Shown here: in pieces, positions 591 to 7,219 of the stretch | Layout: every line of letters starts with the position of its first letter | Numbering within the stretch: the first letter of the stretch is position 1 | Assembly (NCBI RefSeq): GCF_003977755.1 | Contig: NZ_RQWN01000004.1 | Coordinates: forward strand, 186,001-250,000 | Direction: 5' to 3' | DNA length: 64,000 bases | From: Haloterrigena salifodinae | GTDB lineage: Archaea > Halobacteriota > Halobacteria > Halobacteriales > Natrialbaceae | Notes under the pieces: generated by a model | What the model was told of the DNA's origin: nothing | The model's database searches: none | Seen by the model: the letters and a program-made list of their open reading frames with translations, nothing else | Program-made: the position numbers and the translations under genes

Positions 591-1020
591 GCCGTTCCGG
601 ATGAACGGCAAGTGGTCTTGGCTGTATGCTGCAATAGACACCGAGACAACGTTGATCCTCGACGTTGCGTTGTTTAGTCGACATAGCACTGATCCGGCGG
701 TTGCGCTTCTGCAGAAACTCCGCGAGAAACATGATTTCTCCGAGGCTGCGTTTCTCGTTGATCAATTTGGCTATCAGACTACCCCTCTCTCAAGTCGGAC
801 TGAGCGGTCGGGTTAACTATACCGACCGAAACCGCCTCGAAAAGTGGTTTCACACCCTCAAAATGCGAATTGACCGCTTCCATAATTCATGGGTGGGCAG
901 TCGGACGAGCGTCCGAGAGTGGCTTGAACAGTTTATGCATTATGAACCAGTTGCACTACCCGAGGAAGTTTCACGTTCTATACTGACTCAATCTCTCACT
1001 GAGGGTACTAACTAAACAGC
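591..1020 (+). pseudogene. IS6-family transposase remnant (5'-truncated, frameshifted)
   Basis: Codons from 601 read MNGKWSWLYAAIDTETTLIL and match the middle of the IS6-family transposase seen more completely at 35912-36589. The frame changes near 785 (LVDQFGYQT continues as GLSGRVNYTDRN) and the following VREWLEQF matches the C-terminal part. The N-terminal third with the first catalytic aspartate is gone. The right end survives as AACTAAACAGC (1010-1020), a decayed form of the terminal repeat AACTAGACAGTGCC found in other copies here. The insertion has no left end and no visible target duplication. Confidence 0.85.
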
Positions 1021-1063
1021 TCGAAAATCCACCACCCCTAATTAGCCTAGACTCACTCAAAGT

Positions 1064-1087
1064 TTAGACGCGTCTAATTTATATATT
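1064..1087 (+). promoter_or_regulatory. Promoter with 14-bp palindromic operator for the copper operon
   Basis: TTAGACGCGTCTAA (1064-1077) is a perfect palindrome. It runs directly into TTTATATATT (1078-1087), a good archaeal TATA box, so the palindrome covers the BRE position where a bound repressor would block TFB. The start codon at 1143 lies about 60 bp downstream with a Shine-Dalgarno-like GGAGGAGA at 1133-1140 only 2 nt before the ATG. The TTAG/CTAA ends resemble boxes of DtxR-type metal regulators; that link is inference. Confidence 0.6.
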
Positions 1088-1142
1088 GGGAGTGCCAACT
1101 AGCGCATATGGGTATCCGTAGGCTCAACCAGCGGAGGAGATC

Positions 1143-2402
1143 ATGCCCTCGATAGATTACGATAGTGCAGCAGACGTCATAGAACGTCTCGAACAGCGAT
1201 TGATCGAATCACTCACCGGTGAAACGAGCGTCAGTCGTCGCACAGTACTCGGCAGTCTCGGTGTTGCCGGGAGTGCAGCAGTCGGACTCGGGAGTACCCG
1301 AGCAAGTGTGGTGCCTGGCCACAACGACGAGGATGGACACGGTAACTTCGGCACGGTGGGCGAATACCAGGATCTGGATTTCGACCCGCACGAGTTCCTC
1401 ACCGCGTTCAACACCGGAGACAGCGGACAGGATAACGTTCCCCAGCAGATCTATGAGGTGGATGGCCGAACCATCCGGGAGTTCGAATTAACTGCCGTCG
1501 ACACGACGATTACCATCGCGCCGGGCGTTGAGTTCCAGGCATGGGCGTACAACGGCCAGGTGCCGGGTCCGACGATCCGCGCCGTTGAGGGAGACCTGCT
1601 CCGGATCAAGTTCACGAACTTGGGACGGCATGCTCACACGATTCACCCGCATCTGAAGAACCTCAACCCGCGAATGGATGGAATCCCTCAGAACGGGCCT
1701 GGTGTACTCGATACGGGGGAATCCTTCACCTACGAGTGGATCGCCCAGCCTACCGGCACGCACTTCTATCACTGCCACTCGCTCCCACTGAAAGAGCACA
1801 TCCACCGCGGACTCTACGGCACGATCATCGTTGATCCGGACCCCGAACGCGTTAGGGAGAACCCACGCGACTATGTCAATTACCCTGGCCCGATTACTGA
1901 CGACTTCCGGACACAGCTCGTCGAAGAGGCAAGGAGTCGGAATCACGAGTACGCCGAAAACGACGCCGTCAACGAGATGGTAATGATAATGAACTCGTTC
2001 GATACCAACTTCGACGGCGAAAACGAGGTCTACGCGGCGAACACACGGGCGTTCGGATACGGGGTCGGTGAAACCGACGGCAACGGTAACTGGACGGCGG
2101 GCGAGACAAAACGCCCCATCCAGATTGACAAGAACGAACTCCAGCGCGTGTACCTCGCCAATGCCACGGAGTTCGACCTCATCAATTCGTTCCACACGCA
2201 CTCGCAGTTCTTCGACTATTACGACCATGGGACGACGCTGACGCCAACGCGCAAGACTGTGGATACGATCATGCAGACGCAGGCGCAGCGCGGTATCCTC
2301 GAGATCGACTACTCGGATCACGAACCCGGACTGTACATGTTCCACGCGCATCAGTCGGAGTTTGCCGAACTCGGCTGGATGAGCTTCTTCAAGGTGATCT
2401 AA
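1143..2402 (+). CDS. Secreted multicopper oxidase (two-domain, nitrite-reductase/laccase-like)
   Basis: The 419-residue protein has a Tat signal (SRRTVLGSLGVAGSAAVGLG, arginines 32-33). Cupredoxin domain 1 holds HAHTIHPHLKN and HFYHCHSLPLKEHIHRGLYG with Cys211, which gives a type-1 copper site plus histidines for the trinuclear centre. Domain 2 has FHTHSQFFDYY and MFHAHQSEFAELGWM, where an alanine replaces the cysteine of the usual HCH motif. Thus type-1 copper sits only in domain 1, as in nitrite reductases and type-C two-domain oxidases. Location is outside the membrane. It is the first gene of a three-gene operon: the ZIP gene starts 1 nt after its stop and a cupredoxin follows, which suggests oxidation of a metal ion or electron transfer to the cupredoxin. 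Whether it is a metallo-oxidase, laccase or nitrite reductase cannot be decided. Confidence 0.88.
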   Translation: MPSIDYDSAADVIERLEQRLIESLTGETSVSRRTVLGSLGVAGSAAVGLGSTRASVVPGHNDEDGHGNFGTVGEYQDLDFDPHEFLTAFNTGDSGQDNVPQQIYEVDGRTIREFELTAVDTTITIAPGVEFQAWAYNGQVPGPTIRAVEGDLLRIKFTNLGRHAHTIHPHLKNLNPRMDGIPQNGPGVLDTGESFTYEWIAQPTGTHFYHCHSLPLKEHIHRGLYGTIIVDPDPERVRENPRDYVNYPGPITDDFRTQLVEEARSRNHEYAENDAVNEMVMIMNSFDTNFDGENEVYAANTRAFGYGVGETDGNGNWTAGETKRPIQIDKNELQRVYLANATEFDLINSFHTHSQFFDYYDHGTTLTPTRKTVDTIMQTQAQRGILEIDYSDHEPGLYMFHAHQSEFAELGWMSFFKVI

Positions 2403-2403
2403 T

Positions 2404-3654
2404 ATGACGGACAAAGGAGAACACTTGACGACGGACGGTGGTGTACCAGCTGAGAACGAGACCACACAGCCCCTCGGATTACCGCGGTGGGTCAGCGCGT
2501 TACTCCCGATCGTGTTGCTCGTGCTCGTCCTGGGTGTGTTCGCGTTCACGTCACCGCTTGCCGGTGTTCAAAGCGGCGCACCGCTCCCGGACGTGACGGT
2601 CACGCACGCAACGCTTCCGAGCGACGACACGGTCGTACTGCACGTGACGAATAACGGGCCCGAATCCGTGACGATATCACAGGTCCTCGTCGATGAAGCC
2701 TACTGGAATTTCCGGGTCGACGGAGCCGGTGGTGACCAAACGCTCGCCCCGATGGAAAGCGCACAGATCGTGGTTCCGTATCACTGGAATCCAGGGTGGG
2801 ATCTCGAGGTCGCTCTCGTCCTCTCTGACGGATCGACGTTCCATAACACGATCGTCGCTCCGAGTCAGTCACCCGGATTTAGCCTCAGTCTGCTCGGGAC
2901 GCTTGCAGTCATCGGGCTGTTCGTCGGTGTCATCCCGGTCGCACTCGGGATGCTATGGTTCCCCTACATCAAGACGATGAGCGATCGGTGGCTGCACGCC
3001 GTGCTCTTATTCGCGGCCGGCGTACTGAGCTTCTTGGCGTTCGACGCCGGGTTCGAGGCGTTCGAACTCGCCGAGCGGGTTCCAGGCGCGTACAAGGGCA
3101 ACCTCCTGGTCGTCTTCGGAATCTTTGGCGCACTTCTTCTGGTCCAGGCGATCAGTGCGTGGCGTGAGGGCCGTGTCGCCGCTGGCGATAGTCGGGCGAG
3201 TAGCGGTCTCTGGATCGCCTATCTGGTCGCGGTAGGGATCGGTCTGCACAACCTCGCGGAGGGACTTGCTATCGGGAGTTCGTTTGCACTCGGGCGTGTG
3301 TCGCTCGGGGCATTCCTCGTGATTGGGTTCATGCTCCACAACGTGACGGAAGGCCCGGCCGTCGTTGCACCGGTTGCCCGCGGAAAACGCCCGTCGCTCA
3401 AGCACTTCGCCGCACTCGGCGTTATCGCCGGCGCACCCGTCATCCTCGGTGGCTGGATCGGTAGTCTTGCGTACTCGCCGACGATCGGCGCCTTCTTCCT
3501 CGCGATCGGGGTTGGTGCGATCCTGCAGGTCAACTGGGAGATCGCTCGAATGGTTCGGGATGCGGGCGGTCGCGTGGCCAGCGCCACGAACCTGCTTGCA
3601 TTCCTGTTTGGCCTCGGCGTTATGTACGTGACCGACCTCTTTGTGGCGCTCTAA
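2404..3654 (+). CDS. ZIP-family metal transporter with N-terminal extracellular beta domain
   Basis: A 416-residue membrane protein. A first membrane segment (about residues 30-50) is followed by an extracytoplasmic beta-sandwich-like domain (about 60-155, VTHATLPSDDTVVLHVTNNG). Then come roughly eight membrane helices. The ZIP signatures HNLAEGLAIG and MLHNVTEGPAV carry the histidines, asparagine and glutamates that bind metal in helices 4 and 5. ZIP proteins move Zn, Fe or Mn into the cytoplasm. The ATG is 1 nt after the multicopper oxidase stop, so the two are co-transcribed and probably translationally coupled. The added extracellular domain is unusual for ZIP proteins and could receive metal from the oxidase; that is inference. 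Confidence 0.88.
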   Translation: MTDKGEHLTTDGGVPAENETTQPLGLPRWVSALLPIVLLVLVLGVFAFTSPLAGVQSGAPLPDVTVTHATLPSDDTVVLHVTNNGPESVTISQVLVDEAYWNFRVDGAGGDQTLAPMESAQIVVPYHWNPGWDLEVALVLSDGSTFHNTIVAPSQSPGFSLSLLGTLAVIGLFVGVIPVALGMLWFPYIKTMSDRWLHAVLLFAAGVLSFLAFDAGFEAFELAERVPGAYKGNLLVVFGIFGALLLVQAISAWREGRVAAGDSRASSGLWIAYLVAVGIGLHNLAEGLAIGSSFALGRVSLGAFLVIGFMLHNVTEGPAVVAPVARGKRPSLKHFAALGVIAGAPVILGGWIGSLAYSPTIGAFFLAIGVGAILQVNWEIARMVRDAGGRVASATNLLAFLFGLGVMYVTDLFVAL

Positions 3655-3678
3655 TAGACATCACCCAATTCTGTTACA

Positions 3679-4101
3679 ATGTCGATCAAGTATTACGATC
3701 GGCGGATGGTGTTGCGACTTAGCACAGCCACTCTAGCGACTCTCAGCACCGCTGGATGTTTGAGTAGGCAGGCGTCGTCGATCCAGACCATCACGATGCC
3801 CGACAACCACACGTTTGAGCCGAAGACTACGACGATCAAATCTGGAGAGACGGTAACGTGGACGAACGAGAGCGATATCCAGCACACGGTTACAGCGTAC
3901 GAAGACGAGATTCCAGACGAGGCCGAGTACTTCGCAAGTAGTGGCTTTGAGTCAGAGCGTGCTGCGAGAAACCGGATCAACGAGGGACTCATCGCTCCGG
4001 GCGAGAACTACAAGCACACGTTCGATCAACCCGGAACGTACGAATATTATTGTATCCCACACGAGAGTTCTAGGATGGTCGGAACGATTCGAATCGAATG
4101 A
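3679..4101 (+). CDS. Lipoprotein cupredoxin (halocyanin/plastocyanin-like)
   Basis: 140 residues. The N-terminus has a hydrophobic signal ending in a lipobox, LSTAGC, so the mature protein is probably membrane-anchored on the outside. The cupredoxin fold shows NHTFEPKTTTIKSGETVTWTN, the first copper histidine in DIQHTVTAY, and the C-terminal site YYCIPHESSRMVG with Cys, His and Met ligands of a blue copper centre. It follows the ZIP gene by 24 nt and completes the copper operon. It is a likely electron acceptor or donor for the multicopper oxidase. An ARNRINEG insertion separates the first histidine from the C-terminal ligands, as in other haloarchaeal members. Confidence 0.88.
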   Translation: MSIKYYDRRMVLRLSTATLATLSTAGCLSRQASSIQTITMPDNHTFEPKTTTIKSGETVTWTNESDIQHTVTAYEDEIPDEAEYFASSGFESERAARNRINEGLIAPGENYKHTFDQPGTYEYYCIPHESSRMVGTIRIE

Positions 4102-5002: not shown

Positions 5003-5620
5003 ACCCCATCGAGAGACACAAGCAACTCTTCGCCTGATAGGCGCTGAACGCTCTCATCAGGCAATCTGTCACTGGGTACATCGGCTGGCTGACAGCGTAT
5101 CAGACCCGCCGACGTCCACGAGAGCGAAGCGCTCGTGCGGCCTCTTGGAGCGCTTTGCGCTCCAATGGTCGGCGAATCGAAGATTCGCCTCGACAGCAGA
5201 ACGCTCTGCGTTCTGAGGACGGCATCGCCGTCGCAGGTCGCTGTCGACGAAACTGCTGTTAAGATCAACAGCGAGTGTTCTTGTCTGTACGATGCAATAG
5301 ACACCGAGACAAAGATGATTCTTGACGTTGAATTGTTTAGTCGACATGTTACAGATCCGGCGGCTGCGTTTCTGCAGAAACTCCGCGAGAGATACGATTT
5401 TTCCAAGACGGAGTTTCTCGTCGATCAATTTGGCTATTGGACTGCCCCTCTCTCGAGTCGGACTAAGCGGTCGGGTCAACTATACCGACCGAAACCGCAT
5501 CAAAAAGTGGTTTCACACCCTCAAAATGCGAGTTGACCGCTTCCATAACTCATGAGTTGATAGTCAAGCGAACGCTAGGGAATGAATTGAACAGCTTTTC
5601 CACTACTACACATATAACGA
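5003..5620 (+). pseudogene. IS6-family transposase remnant carrying a hairpin-array insertion
   Basis: Plus-strand pieces RETQATLRLIGAERSHQAIC, then VAVDETAVKINSE, DAIDTETKMILDVELFSRH, LVDQFGYWTA and NYTDRNRIKKWFHTLKMRVD cover the central and C-terminal transposase. The terminal repeats are missing, the frame shifts several times, and the C-terminus decays after base 5560. A 107-nt insertion (5115-5221) interrupts the region just before the first catalytic aspartate. It is clearly the same IS family as the copies at 6012, 35853, 40146 and 58826. Confidence 0.85.
5115..5232 (+). repeat. Array of short hairpins inserted in a transposase gene
   Basis: Five consecutive palindromes with mostly 3-nt loops: 5117-5137 (8-bp arms with a 2-nt bulge), 5145-5165 (TTGGAGCGC-TTT-GCGCTCCAA, 9-bp arms), 5171-5189 (GGCGAATC-GAA-GATTCGCC), 5197-5215 (CAGAACGC-TCT-GCGTTCTG) and 5218-5232 (GACGGC-ATC-GCCGTC). 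Gaps are 2-7 nt. Comparison with the copy at 35912 shows that 5115-5221 is an insertion placed after a GACG and ending in GACG. Its ends resemble those of the 56-nt insertions at 6619-6674 and 58960-59015. Confidence 0.85.
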
Positions 5621-6011: not shown

Positions 6012-6808
6012 GGCACTGTCTAGTTTAGCACCTCCGCTGACGTTTGTCTGTTGAGTGATTGGTGCGGTCGTTGTGTGTTATAATAGTGTACAAACTGTTC
6101 AAGTCATTCCCTGACGCTCGCCTGACTTCCCACCCACGAATTATGGAAGCGGTCAACTCGCATTTTGAAGGTGTGAAACCACTTTTTAATCAATTTCGAT
6201 CAGCGTAGTCGAGCTGACCGCTCAATCCTAACCGAGAGAGGGCAGTCAGATATCCATAGCTATCGACGAGAAACACGGTATCGGAGAGATCGTGTTTCTC
6301 GGTCAATCGATGCAGGAATGTAGCGGCCGGATCGGTGCCTCGTCGTCCAAACACTGCGACATCGAGAACGAGTCTAGAGTCCACGTCTATTGCAGCGTAT
6401 ACCCAAGACCAGTCGCCGTTGATCTTGACAGCGGCTCATCAACAGCGACCCGCGACGGCTGCGCCGTCGGCGGGTCTGATACGCTGTCAGCCAGCCGATG
6501 TACCCAGTGCCAGATTGCCTGATGAGAGCGTTCAATGCCTATCAGGCGAAGAATTGCTTGTGTCTCTCGGAGCGAACATCCGGTCGCGTGGAGGCGGACG
6601 GCGAACACTCTGACGGGCGTCCTCAGAACGCTCCGCGTTCTAATGGGCCGCACAAGAGCTACCCTCTTGTGAACGTCGCCGTCCGCTCACGCTCCCAAGA
6701 TTCATCAAATTCCGCCGCGTAGCATTCGCTGAGCAGGTCCGCGAGCGGCATAGCCAACCTAGCTCTACGACCTACTCGCTTCTCAAACCGCGCTAACTAG
6801 ACGATGCC
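6012..6808 (-). mobile_element. IS6-family insertion sequence, full length but inactive
   Basis: Terminal repeats are GGCACTGTCTAGTT (6012-6025) and AACTAGACGATGCC (6795-6808). The transposase reads leftward from about 6770 and is broken by frameshifts; recognisable parts are RETQAILRLIGIERSHQAIW, SDPPTAQPSRVAVDE and LDVAVFGRRGTDPAATFLHR. The length, 797 bp, equals the 743-745 bp of the other complete copies plus a 56-nt hairpin insertion (6619-6674). The right end abuts the truncated DAACS transporter gene. No 8-bp target duplication was found. Confidence 0.88.
6619..6674 (-). repeat. 56-nt double-hairpin insertion in the IS6 transposase
   Basis: Contains AGAACGC-TCC-GCGTTCT (6626-6642, 7-bp arms) and CACAAGAG-N5-CTCTTGTG (6652-6672, 8-bp arms). 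Read on the minus strand it starts TTCACAAGAG and ends TCTGAGGACG. It is nearly identical to 58960-59015, and its ends resemble those of the larger insertion at 5115-5221. It lies inside a longer palindrome, GGACGGCGA...TCGCCGTCC, that belongs to the transposase gene itself. Confidence 0.8.
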
Positions 6809-7219
6809 GCTCGGGACGATGCCAAGAACGACCTCGGTGAGCGAGGGGGGTACCTGGGACTCAGCTTCACCGCCGGTAAACTCGACGCCACGGCCGGGTT
6901 GAAGGGCGTTCGCGACGGCAAGTCCGATGGTGCCTGCGATGGTAGTCGTTACTGCGTAGAGGCCGACGGTCGCTCCTCCTATCTTGCCAAGTCGAGCTGG
7001 CGACAGCTGGCGGATTCCAGTCAGCAGCGTGAAGACGATGATCGGAATCACCAGCAAGTTGAGCAGCCGCAAGAATAGGTCTCCGAGCGATTCGACGACC
7101 GTCATCTGCTCACCGAATGCGATCCCCGCTGCGGATCCGAGAAGGAACGTGAGTGTGATGCGATAGATCAATGGCACCGACCGGTACCGCTGCCATACTG
7201 GACCAACCGTTGAGTACAT
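6797..7219 (-). pseudogene. DAACS dicarboxylate/amino-acid:cation symporter, N-terminal third
   Basis: The 140 residues (MYSTVGPVWQRYRSVPLIYR at the start) match the first third of the intact transporter at 41290-42594, including GDLFLRLLNLLVIPIIVFTL. The match ends after LGIVPS exactly where the IS6 terminal repeat begins; the TAG stop at 6797-6799 lies within that repeat. The protein keeps about three membrane helices and lacks the substrate-binding hairpins and the NMDG-type motif, so it cannot transport. The upstream sequence (7220-7290) also resembles that of the intact copy, so promoter and gene were duplicated together. Confidence 0.9.

Follow-up and report, generated by a model that had tools for sequence, protein, structure and literature searches.

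A multicopper oxidase-ZIP operon of Haloterrigena salifodinae as a candidate oxidase-coupled metal importer under DtxR/MntR-family control

The locus and its three gene products

A stretch of 64,000 nucleotides from Haloterrigena salifodinae (contig NZ_RQWN01000004.1, positions 186,001 to 250,000; the window) carries adjoining genes for a two-domain multicopper oxidase (MCO), a transporter of the ZIP family and a small cupredoxin (Table 1). A single base lies between the oxidase stop codon and the start of the transporter gene, and 24 bases lie between the transporter and cupredoxin genes; the tight spacing of the first two, pointed out in an earlier sequence-only reading of the locus, is borne out by the open reading frame (ORF) coordinates. 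That reading spanned positions 1143-4101 and leaves out two upstream features, a palindromic candidate operator and the remnant of a regulator gene. The evidence set out below makes it probable that the three genes form one operon for an oxidase-coupled metal importer, opened by a shortage of manganese (or iron). Among named records, plasmid pHTUR01 of Haloterrigena turkmenica comes closest, with an oxidase that is 98.1% identical and the three genes in the same order.

Table 1. Features of the oxidase-ZIP locus, in window coordinates.
Feature	Position	Strand	Length	Basis and remarks
DtxR/SirR-family regulator gene remnant	944-1015	+	last 23 codons and stop	C-terminus of ORF 665-1015
Perfect palindrome TTAGACGCGTCTAA, predicted DtxR/SirR-type operator	1064-1077	no strand		Pattern searches
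TATA-like TTTATATATT	1078-1087			Adjoins palindrome TTAGACGCGTCTAA; putative B-recognition element (BRE)/TATA arrangement
Two-domain multicopper oxidase ORF	1143-2402	+	419 aa	ORF list, Pfam, structure matches, alignment
ZIP-family transporter ORF	2404-3654	+	416 aa	ORF list, Pfam, model, fold match
ZIP beta domain (residues about 64-150)	2593-2853	+		Model, alignment, coverage in MCO-linked ZIPs
Small cupredoxin ORF, plastocyanin/halocyanin type, lipobox STAGC	3679-4101	+	140 aa	Pfam; lipobox from sequence

The oxidase contains the Pfam domains Cu-oxidase_3 and Cu-oxidase_2. Its matches to the solved structures 7rab (the dodecameric oxidase of M. hydrothermalis; 364.9 bits, 54% identity over 272 aligned residues) and 3gdc (248 bits, 42% over 261) both rank above any nitrite reductase entry; the structure model of the oxidase itself was poor (predicted local distance difference test, pLDDT, 60) and was used for the list of structure matches only. 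Across 22 aligned oxidases, H165, H168, H170, H210, C211, H212, H219, H351, H353, H401 and H403 are invariant. By homology, we take H165, C211 and H219 to be the type-1 (T1) copper ligands, in domain 1, and H168, H170, H210, H212, H351, H353, H401 and H403 to be the histidines of the trinuclear site; with all eight of the latter present, O2 is the expected electron sink. The sequence-only reading had placed the T1 cysteine (Cys211, within HCH) in domain 1 only, with HAH in domain 2, and this is confirmed throughout the alignment, residue 402 being alanine in 22 of 22 sequences. The HAH motif is real, but it is no defect: its invariance marks it as the normal state of type-C two-domain MCOs, a class that we take to be defined by two cupredoxin domains, a T1 cysteine in domain 1 only and HAH in domain 2. 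Judged by its domains and ligands, the window oxidase, which has all of these features, is a type-C two-domain MCO. The ligand pattern is common to 7rab and 3gdc, to which the haloarchaeal proteins add an N-terminal extension and inserts. The axial T1 position holds leucine (Leu224 in the window oxidase; leucine in 21 of the 22 sequences), and the N-terminus, with SRRTVLG, reads as a signal like those of twin-arginine translocation (Tat).

Other identities for the oxidase were rejected. NirK nitrite reductases have a catalytic aspartate at the Asp98 position and no trinuclear site; at the place of Asp98 (NirK numbering) the window oxidase has His168, its trinuclear set is complete, and it scores 73.9 bits with the NirK equivalog model against a cut-off of 296.3. 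Scores for the copper-resistance oxidases CopA and CueO were far below cut-off.

The transporter scores 24.6 bits with the Pfam Zip model, below the cut-off of 35.1; the assignment is supported by a match of its membrane part to the structures of BbZIP (best match 7z6m, E = 1.7e-06). In the structure model (pLDDT 75; predicted template modelling score, pTM, 0.62) an extra N-terminal helix (residues 28-49) and strands within residues 64-150 precede what we read as eight membrane helices. The modelled protein has the ZIP fold of eight helices, two of which contain the binuclear-site motifs HNLAEG (282-287) and HNVTEG (312-317). Its fold and HNxxEG motifs resemble those of BbZIP and ZupT-like ZIPs, to which it adds the extra helix and an extracellular Ig-like domain; three other ZIPs of the same genome have HNVPEG at the motif found. 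The model and structure matches both support this domain, which the sequence-only reading had described as an extracellular beta domain. It matches the Ig-like domains of the archaellum proteins FlaF and FlaG (best 6pbk, E = 3.2e-04), and the list of structure matches also contains, among others, PCuAC domains (E = 4e-03 and worse). A role as a copper chaperone, raised by the latter, was rejected: the ZIP alignment (L020 omitted because of an in-frame stop) contains no conserved set of His, Met or Cys metal ligands in the domain, and a docking role is therefore favoured. Invariant residues of the domain include N83, G85, T90, Q93, V94, L95, A99, Y100, T113, P125, Y126, W128 and G131.

A close homologue of the cupredoxin (Pfam Copper-bind) lies 3' of the pair in 25 of 47 loci collected by oxidase similarity; L009 aligned partly, and L050 gave one more weak match. 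In the bacterial plasmid records opened, no annotated cupredoxin comes immediately after the pair; in some, hypothetical proteins occupy that place. The cupredoxin is an optional accessory in part of the haloarchaeal copies, and the idea that the oxidase hands its electrons to it finds no support, given the complete trinuclear site and an occurrence in only these 25 loci.

Conservation of the oxidase-ZIP pair

The sequence-only reading had treated the three genes as a unit, of which the oxidase-ZIP part is conserved across archaea and bacteria far beyond chance, while the cupredoxin is not a constant member. ZIP lies directly downstream of the oxidase in 46 of the 47 loci, the exception (L052) coming from an incomplete thaumarchaeal genome. 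Among 116 sampled haloarchaeal genomes, searched with thresholds of E up to 1e-40 for the oxidase and up to 1e-20 for ZIP, the oxidase occurs in 10, the window's own included. A ZIP spanning the full model lies beside it in all 10, and full-model-spanning matches are confined to these genomes; 16 ZIP matches in 15 other genomes start at model position 149 or beyond, all without a detected oxidase, and G036 holds a further C-terminal fragment. At E up to 1e-50 the oxidase was found in 27 of 296 actinobacterial genomes, with ZIP beside it in 29 of 30 loci, the remaining one (L091) being cut by a contig end. Of the actinobacterial ZIP matches, 32 begin no later than model position 25 and all others at 155 or later. 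Only three of the 32 are not beside a detected oxidase (G139 C133, G221 C76 and G360 C202), and each of these begins within 420 bases of a contig start. No match of the short type adjoins an oxidase, and all but one are in genomes without a detected oxidase; the exception (G318 C56) runs from contig base 3, with an oxidase on another contig of the same genome.

In the class of L052, by inference Nitrososphaeria, 48 of 101 genomes gave an oxidase match, part of which may belong to other oxidase lineages; in the best 30 loci from these 48 genomes, a ZIP with the beta domain stands beside the oxidase in 28, L143 being cut by a contig end and L114 showing no ZIP. In bacterial plasmid records, 13 of 13 ZIP matches run from model position 4-24 to 404-405. 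The pair was seen in haloarchaea, thaumarchaea, Actinomycetota, Cyanobacteria, Bacillota, Deinococcota and Alphaproteobacteria, and on a Chloroflexi contig with the ZIP cut. The locus sets share some members and cannot be taken as phylogenetically independent samples: L079 represents the operon of the window itself, L050 and L085 are one gene (G117), L065 and L097 share contig coordinates, and L006-L048 may have further members in common with L074-L083.

In the haloarchaeal and actinobacterial samples, ZIPs that lack the beta domain never adjoin the oxidase. The lone oxidase-linked ZIP seen without it is part of a single 603-residue ZIP-MCO protein encoded on a Deinococcus plasmid (L145, 3914-5725), with ZIP helices at residues 22-253, Pfam oxidase domains at 326-557 and the cysteine in domain 2; its gene lies near CDF and ArsR genes. 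By this domain composition, it is an independent fusion of the same two functions. Taken together, the conserved pair, the accompanying beta domain and the fusion are best explained by a physical coupling of the oxidase to the importer. On three Bacillaceae plasmids (L068, L069 and L146) a TatA-like gene is found 3' of the pair, which suggests a dedicated part for Tat export.

The upstream palindrome and linked regulators

The pattern TTAG-N6-CTAA was searched within 1.1 kb upstream of the oxidase, with 60 shuffles as control. It is present in 37 of 43 related haloarchaeal loci (the 47 with L049-L052 left out; shuffles, mean 0.10, maximum 2), in 10 of 10 sampled haloarchaeal loci (mean 0.17, maximum 1), in 21 of 30 actinobacterial loci (mean 0.02, maximum 1) and in 28 of 30 thaumarchaeal loci (mean 0.78, maximum 4), L114 and L115 having none. 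Where a regulator gene leads the operon, the palindrome often precedes that gene.

Within the 4.96-Mb genome from which the window comes, the strict pattern TTAGAYNNRTCWAA occurs in two places, against none forward and one reverse for a control pattern: at the window operon, and just before the gene for a 226-residue, SirR-like member of the DtxR family that has both DtxR domains and a FeoA domain. With TTAGACNNGTCTAA, one mismatch being allowed, the genome has four sites and the control three, and weight is therefore given to the strict sites only. Ten thaumarchaeal genomes were chosen for having TTAGCCTAGGCTAA at their locus; they contain 14 sites that differ from it at no more than one base, each just upstream of an oxidase gene. 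This sequence and its variants stand upstream of the oxidase in L116-L143, twice in several loci, with starts 19 bp apart. A 16-bp form, TTTAGACNNGTCTAAA, has five sites in the 116 haloarchaeal genomes, of which three precede sirR and a GDT1-family antiporter gene (L151, L152 and L154) and one precedes a regulator-oxidase operon. With one tblastn query, GDT1 was matched only in those three loci, whose genomes have no detected oxidase, and no match was obtained in the sirR stretch of the window's own genome (L156).

In 27 of the 43 haloarchaeal loci, the 1.5 kb upstream of the oxidase contain a gene or gene piece of the DtxR family, and such a gene stands beside the oxidase in 21 of 30 actinobacterial loci (in one as a fragment) and in 6 of 30 thaumarchaeal loci. 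In 22 plasmid records, chosen for variety and not at random, a DtxR/MntR-family gene is next to the pair in 10 and a Fur-family gene in one (Microvirga); six of the ten are annotated mntR (Sulfitobacter, two Sinorhizobium, Shinella, Actibacterium and Ensifer). A promoter palindrome combined with a linked DtxR gene in relatives is the mark of an MntR/SirR-type regulon, to which the window operon would on this pattern belong.

In the DtxR family, Met10 and Cys102 mark iron sensors, and Asp or Glu at these places manganese sensors; in our reference alignment IdeR has Met and Cys, and SloR has Asp and Glu. None of the aligned linked regulators has Met at the first place or Cys at the second. The Met10 place is Asp in 30 of 34 haloarchaeal, 21 of 24 actinobacterial, 6 of 6 alphaproteobacterial, 6 of 6 thaumarchaeal and the one Deinococcus regulator rows. 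The Cys102 place is Asp in 30 of the 34 haloarchaeal rows, and Glu or Asp in all 24 actinobacterial, all 6 alphaproteobacterial, all 6 thaumarchaeal and the single Deinococcus rows; some of the haloarchaeal rows are of degenerate or partial genes or of a paralogue, and a few genes are counted twice. In Deinococcus sp. D7000 an Nramp gene and a regulator gene are divergent to the pair. A published listing groups the H. salinarum sirR deletion with manganese and iron homeostasis (PMC5605881).

The regulator remnant of the window abuts a transposase remnant on its upstream side (window 601-1015), and the two flanks correspond to separate places in a relative's locus: window 950-1142 is 85.6% identical to L011 4806-5000, and window 601-942 matches L011 361-701 at 85.7%. 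As the operator is intact though the adjoining regulator gene is a remnant, the window operon may be controlled by the SirR-like protein, whose own gene on contig C1 is preceded by the same operator. By eye, window 5135-5536 is a second stretch resembling the transposase remnant of 665-1015. A short ORF at 6797-7219 (140 aa) resembles, from its sequence, the N-terminal part of a dicarboxylate-type symporter.

Proposed function and relation to known systems

At the level of sequence, the ligand sets, the gene order, the association with the beta domain and the linkage of operator and regulator are firm. Gene order, beta-domain association, the Deinococcus fusion and the metalloregulator operator support the earlier suggestion of oxidation-coupled metal uptake outside the membrane, and we hold with good confidence that the pair is a coupled MCO-ZIP importer under DtxR/MntR-family control. 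The exported MCO would most likely dock on the Ig-like domain that the ZIP exposes outside the membrane and act at the entrance to the transporter, passing its electrons to O2. ZIP proteins are an uptake family and carry divalent ions, and the transporter would bring a divalent metal into the cell. The palindrome adjoins the TATA-like box at the place expected for the upstream promoter element; a metal-loaded DtxR/MntR-family regulator bound there should therefore repress, and the operon would open when metal is short, as expected of an uptake system. Judged by the type of regulator, manganese comes first and iron second: manganese has an even chance of being the cargo, iron seems unlikely, and copper, or any other metal, each slightly more so. 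For the chemistry we prefer a gate that selects by redox behaviour. T1 copper can oxidise Fe(II) and Cu(I), whereas free Mn(II) is hardly within its reach; with Fe(II) oxidised at the transporter entrance, Mn(II) would remain for uptake by the ZIP. This Fe(II) gate is a tentative proposal. Equally speculative is the fuller picture of a widespread manganese importer, in which an MCO docked on the ZIP Ig-like domain oxidises Fe(II) and Cu(I) and passes Mn(II), behind a switch of the MntR/SirR type, the operator of which has few other uses in the genomes examined.

Several observations weigh against this account. Nine of the 30 actinobacterial loci have no palindrome, and seven of these (L099, L100, L105 and L107-L110) also have no DtxR gene in the fetched stretch. 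A reversed control pattern of the thaumarchaeal operator gave six sites in four of the same ten genomes, and the fifth 16-bp site (L155) adjoins no regulator or known metal gene. SirR is described as usually iron-responsive in haloarchaea (PMC11218638). Asp at position 10 of the regulators suggests manganese without proving it, three actinobacterial regulators have Ala there, and the metal sensed may differ from the metal carried. Nramp was found beside the pair only once, one tblastn query against the loci matching L144 alone. Six plasmid pairs (L064, L068, L069, L073, L147 and L149) lie near ArsR-type, MerR-type or two-component genes and metal-efflux genes, with no annotated DtxR gene, and copper genes (SCO, PCu(A)C and P-type ATPase) flank some mntR-linked copies (L071 and L150).

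The rival that survives best, though it is rather improbable, is iron uptake in the manner of yeast Fet3-Ftr1, in which Fe(III) made by the oxidase is handed to the permease, or else the ZIP imports another form of iron. The logic of oxidase plus permease is the same, DtxR-family control would fit, and the axial leucine and the published description of SirR agree with it. The linked regulators, however, have neither of the iron-type residues, the six alphaproteobacterial copies are annotated mntR, and ZIPs carry divalent ions.

Somewhat less probable is copper uptake as proposed for ammonia-oxidising archaea, with the oxidase turning Cu(I) to Cu(II) outside and the ZIP importing Cu(II). This has been published for the same kind of gene pair (PMC7785015, PMC7819960), and copper genes lie near some bacterial copies. 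In copper-limited N. viennensis, MCO1 and the adjacent permease rose moderately (log2 fold changes of 0.81 and 1.33; PMC7785015), which also counts against manganese; conflicting MCO1 patterns in N. maritimus are reported by the same paper. The operators and regulators, though, belong to the DtxR/MntR family and give copper weaker regulatory support, sites of the operator in the ten selected thaumarchaeal genomes (one mismatch allowed) are confined to this operon, and the oxidase has no evident Met-rich region for Cu(I).

A metal-resistance module, with an oxidase that renders a reduced metal harmless and a ZIP that restores the supply of an essential metal when Cd, Zn or Co has displaced it, is about as improbable as copper uptake: the plasmid copies near metal-efflux or mercury-type genes would fit, whereas the DtxR-type palindrome at 28 of the 30 thaumarchaeal and 47 of the 53 haloarchaeal loci and the membership of ZIP in an uptake family do not, and this alternative overlaps our own if the metal replaced is manganese. 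A nitrite reductase or respiratory module feeding the cupredoxin is very improbable: NirK shares the fold (17-24% identity among the structure matches listed), the cupredoxin accompanies a part of the loci, and a similar trio, which may be the counterpart of the window operon, rises in denitrifying H. mediterranei (PMC11218638), but His168, the trinuclear site and the low equivalog score argue otherwise, and we did not find the proven nitrite reductases in ZIP-less denitrification clusters that the sequence-only reading had set against itself, ZIP being nearly always there.

The reading that we favour, an oxidase-coupled importer opened by manganese (or iron) shortage, can be set beside known systems. 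Oxidase-coupled metal uptake is known for iron in eukaryotes, in Fet3-Ftr1 and FOX1-FTR1, which would work alike in coupling a surface multicopper oxidase to a permease. The present pair differs in its ZIP permease, two-domain oxidase and DtxR/MntR-family control, and is not a member of that group: Ftr1-type permeases are marked by a REXXE motif, whereas the window permease is a ZIP by Pfam and fold match. A prokaryotic, ZIP-based form of oxidase-coupled uptake, in thaumarchaea and on many plasmids, would, if true, be a general device, and the linkage of operator and regulator makes the reading directly testable in tractable haloarchaea and rhizobia.

The H. mediterranei trio of MCO, transmembrane protein and plastocyanin matches the window operon in gene types, may be its counterpart, and is assigned to copper homeostasis in the account given of it (PMC11218638). 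For ammonia-oxidising archaea the oxidase-ZIP pair is already in print (Kerou 2016 as cited; PMC7785015, PMC7819960), with the same adjacent genes, MCO then ZIP, and from gene order and the axial leucine we infer that our thaumarchaeal loci are the published MCO1. Where those papers treat the pair, it is a copper-uptake system of that group only, whereas here it extends over wider taxa and often has regulators of the Mn/Fe type, a type that would speak against copper as cargo. New here is the predicted control of the pair by the DtxR/MntR family; we found no literature that ties the two together, and published archaeal DtxR-regulon and iron-network studies, which lay outside the search, may mention the operon. 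A linked oxidase-ZIP pair in archaea and many bacteria, often behind a Mn/Fe-type switch, suggests oxidase-assisted metal uptake and not copper uptake, and if the cargo is manganese (or iron) the copper-uptake model for ammonia-oxidising archaea needs revision.

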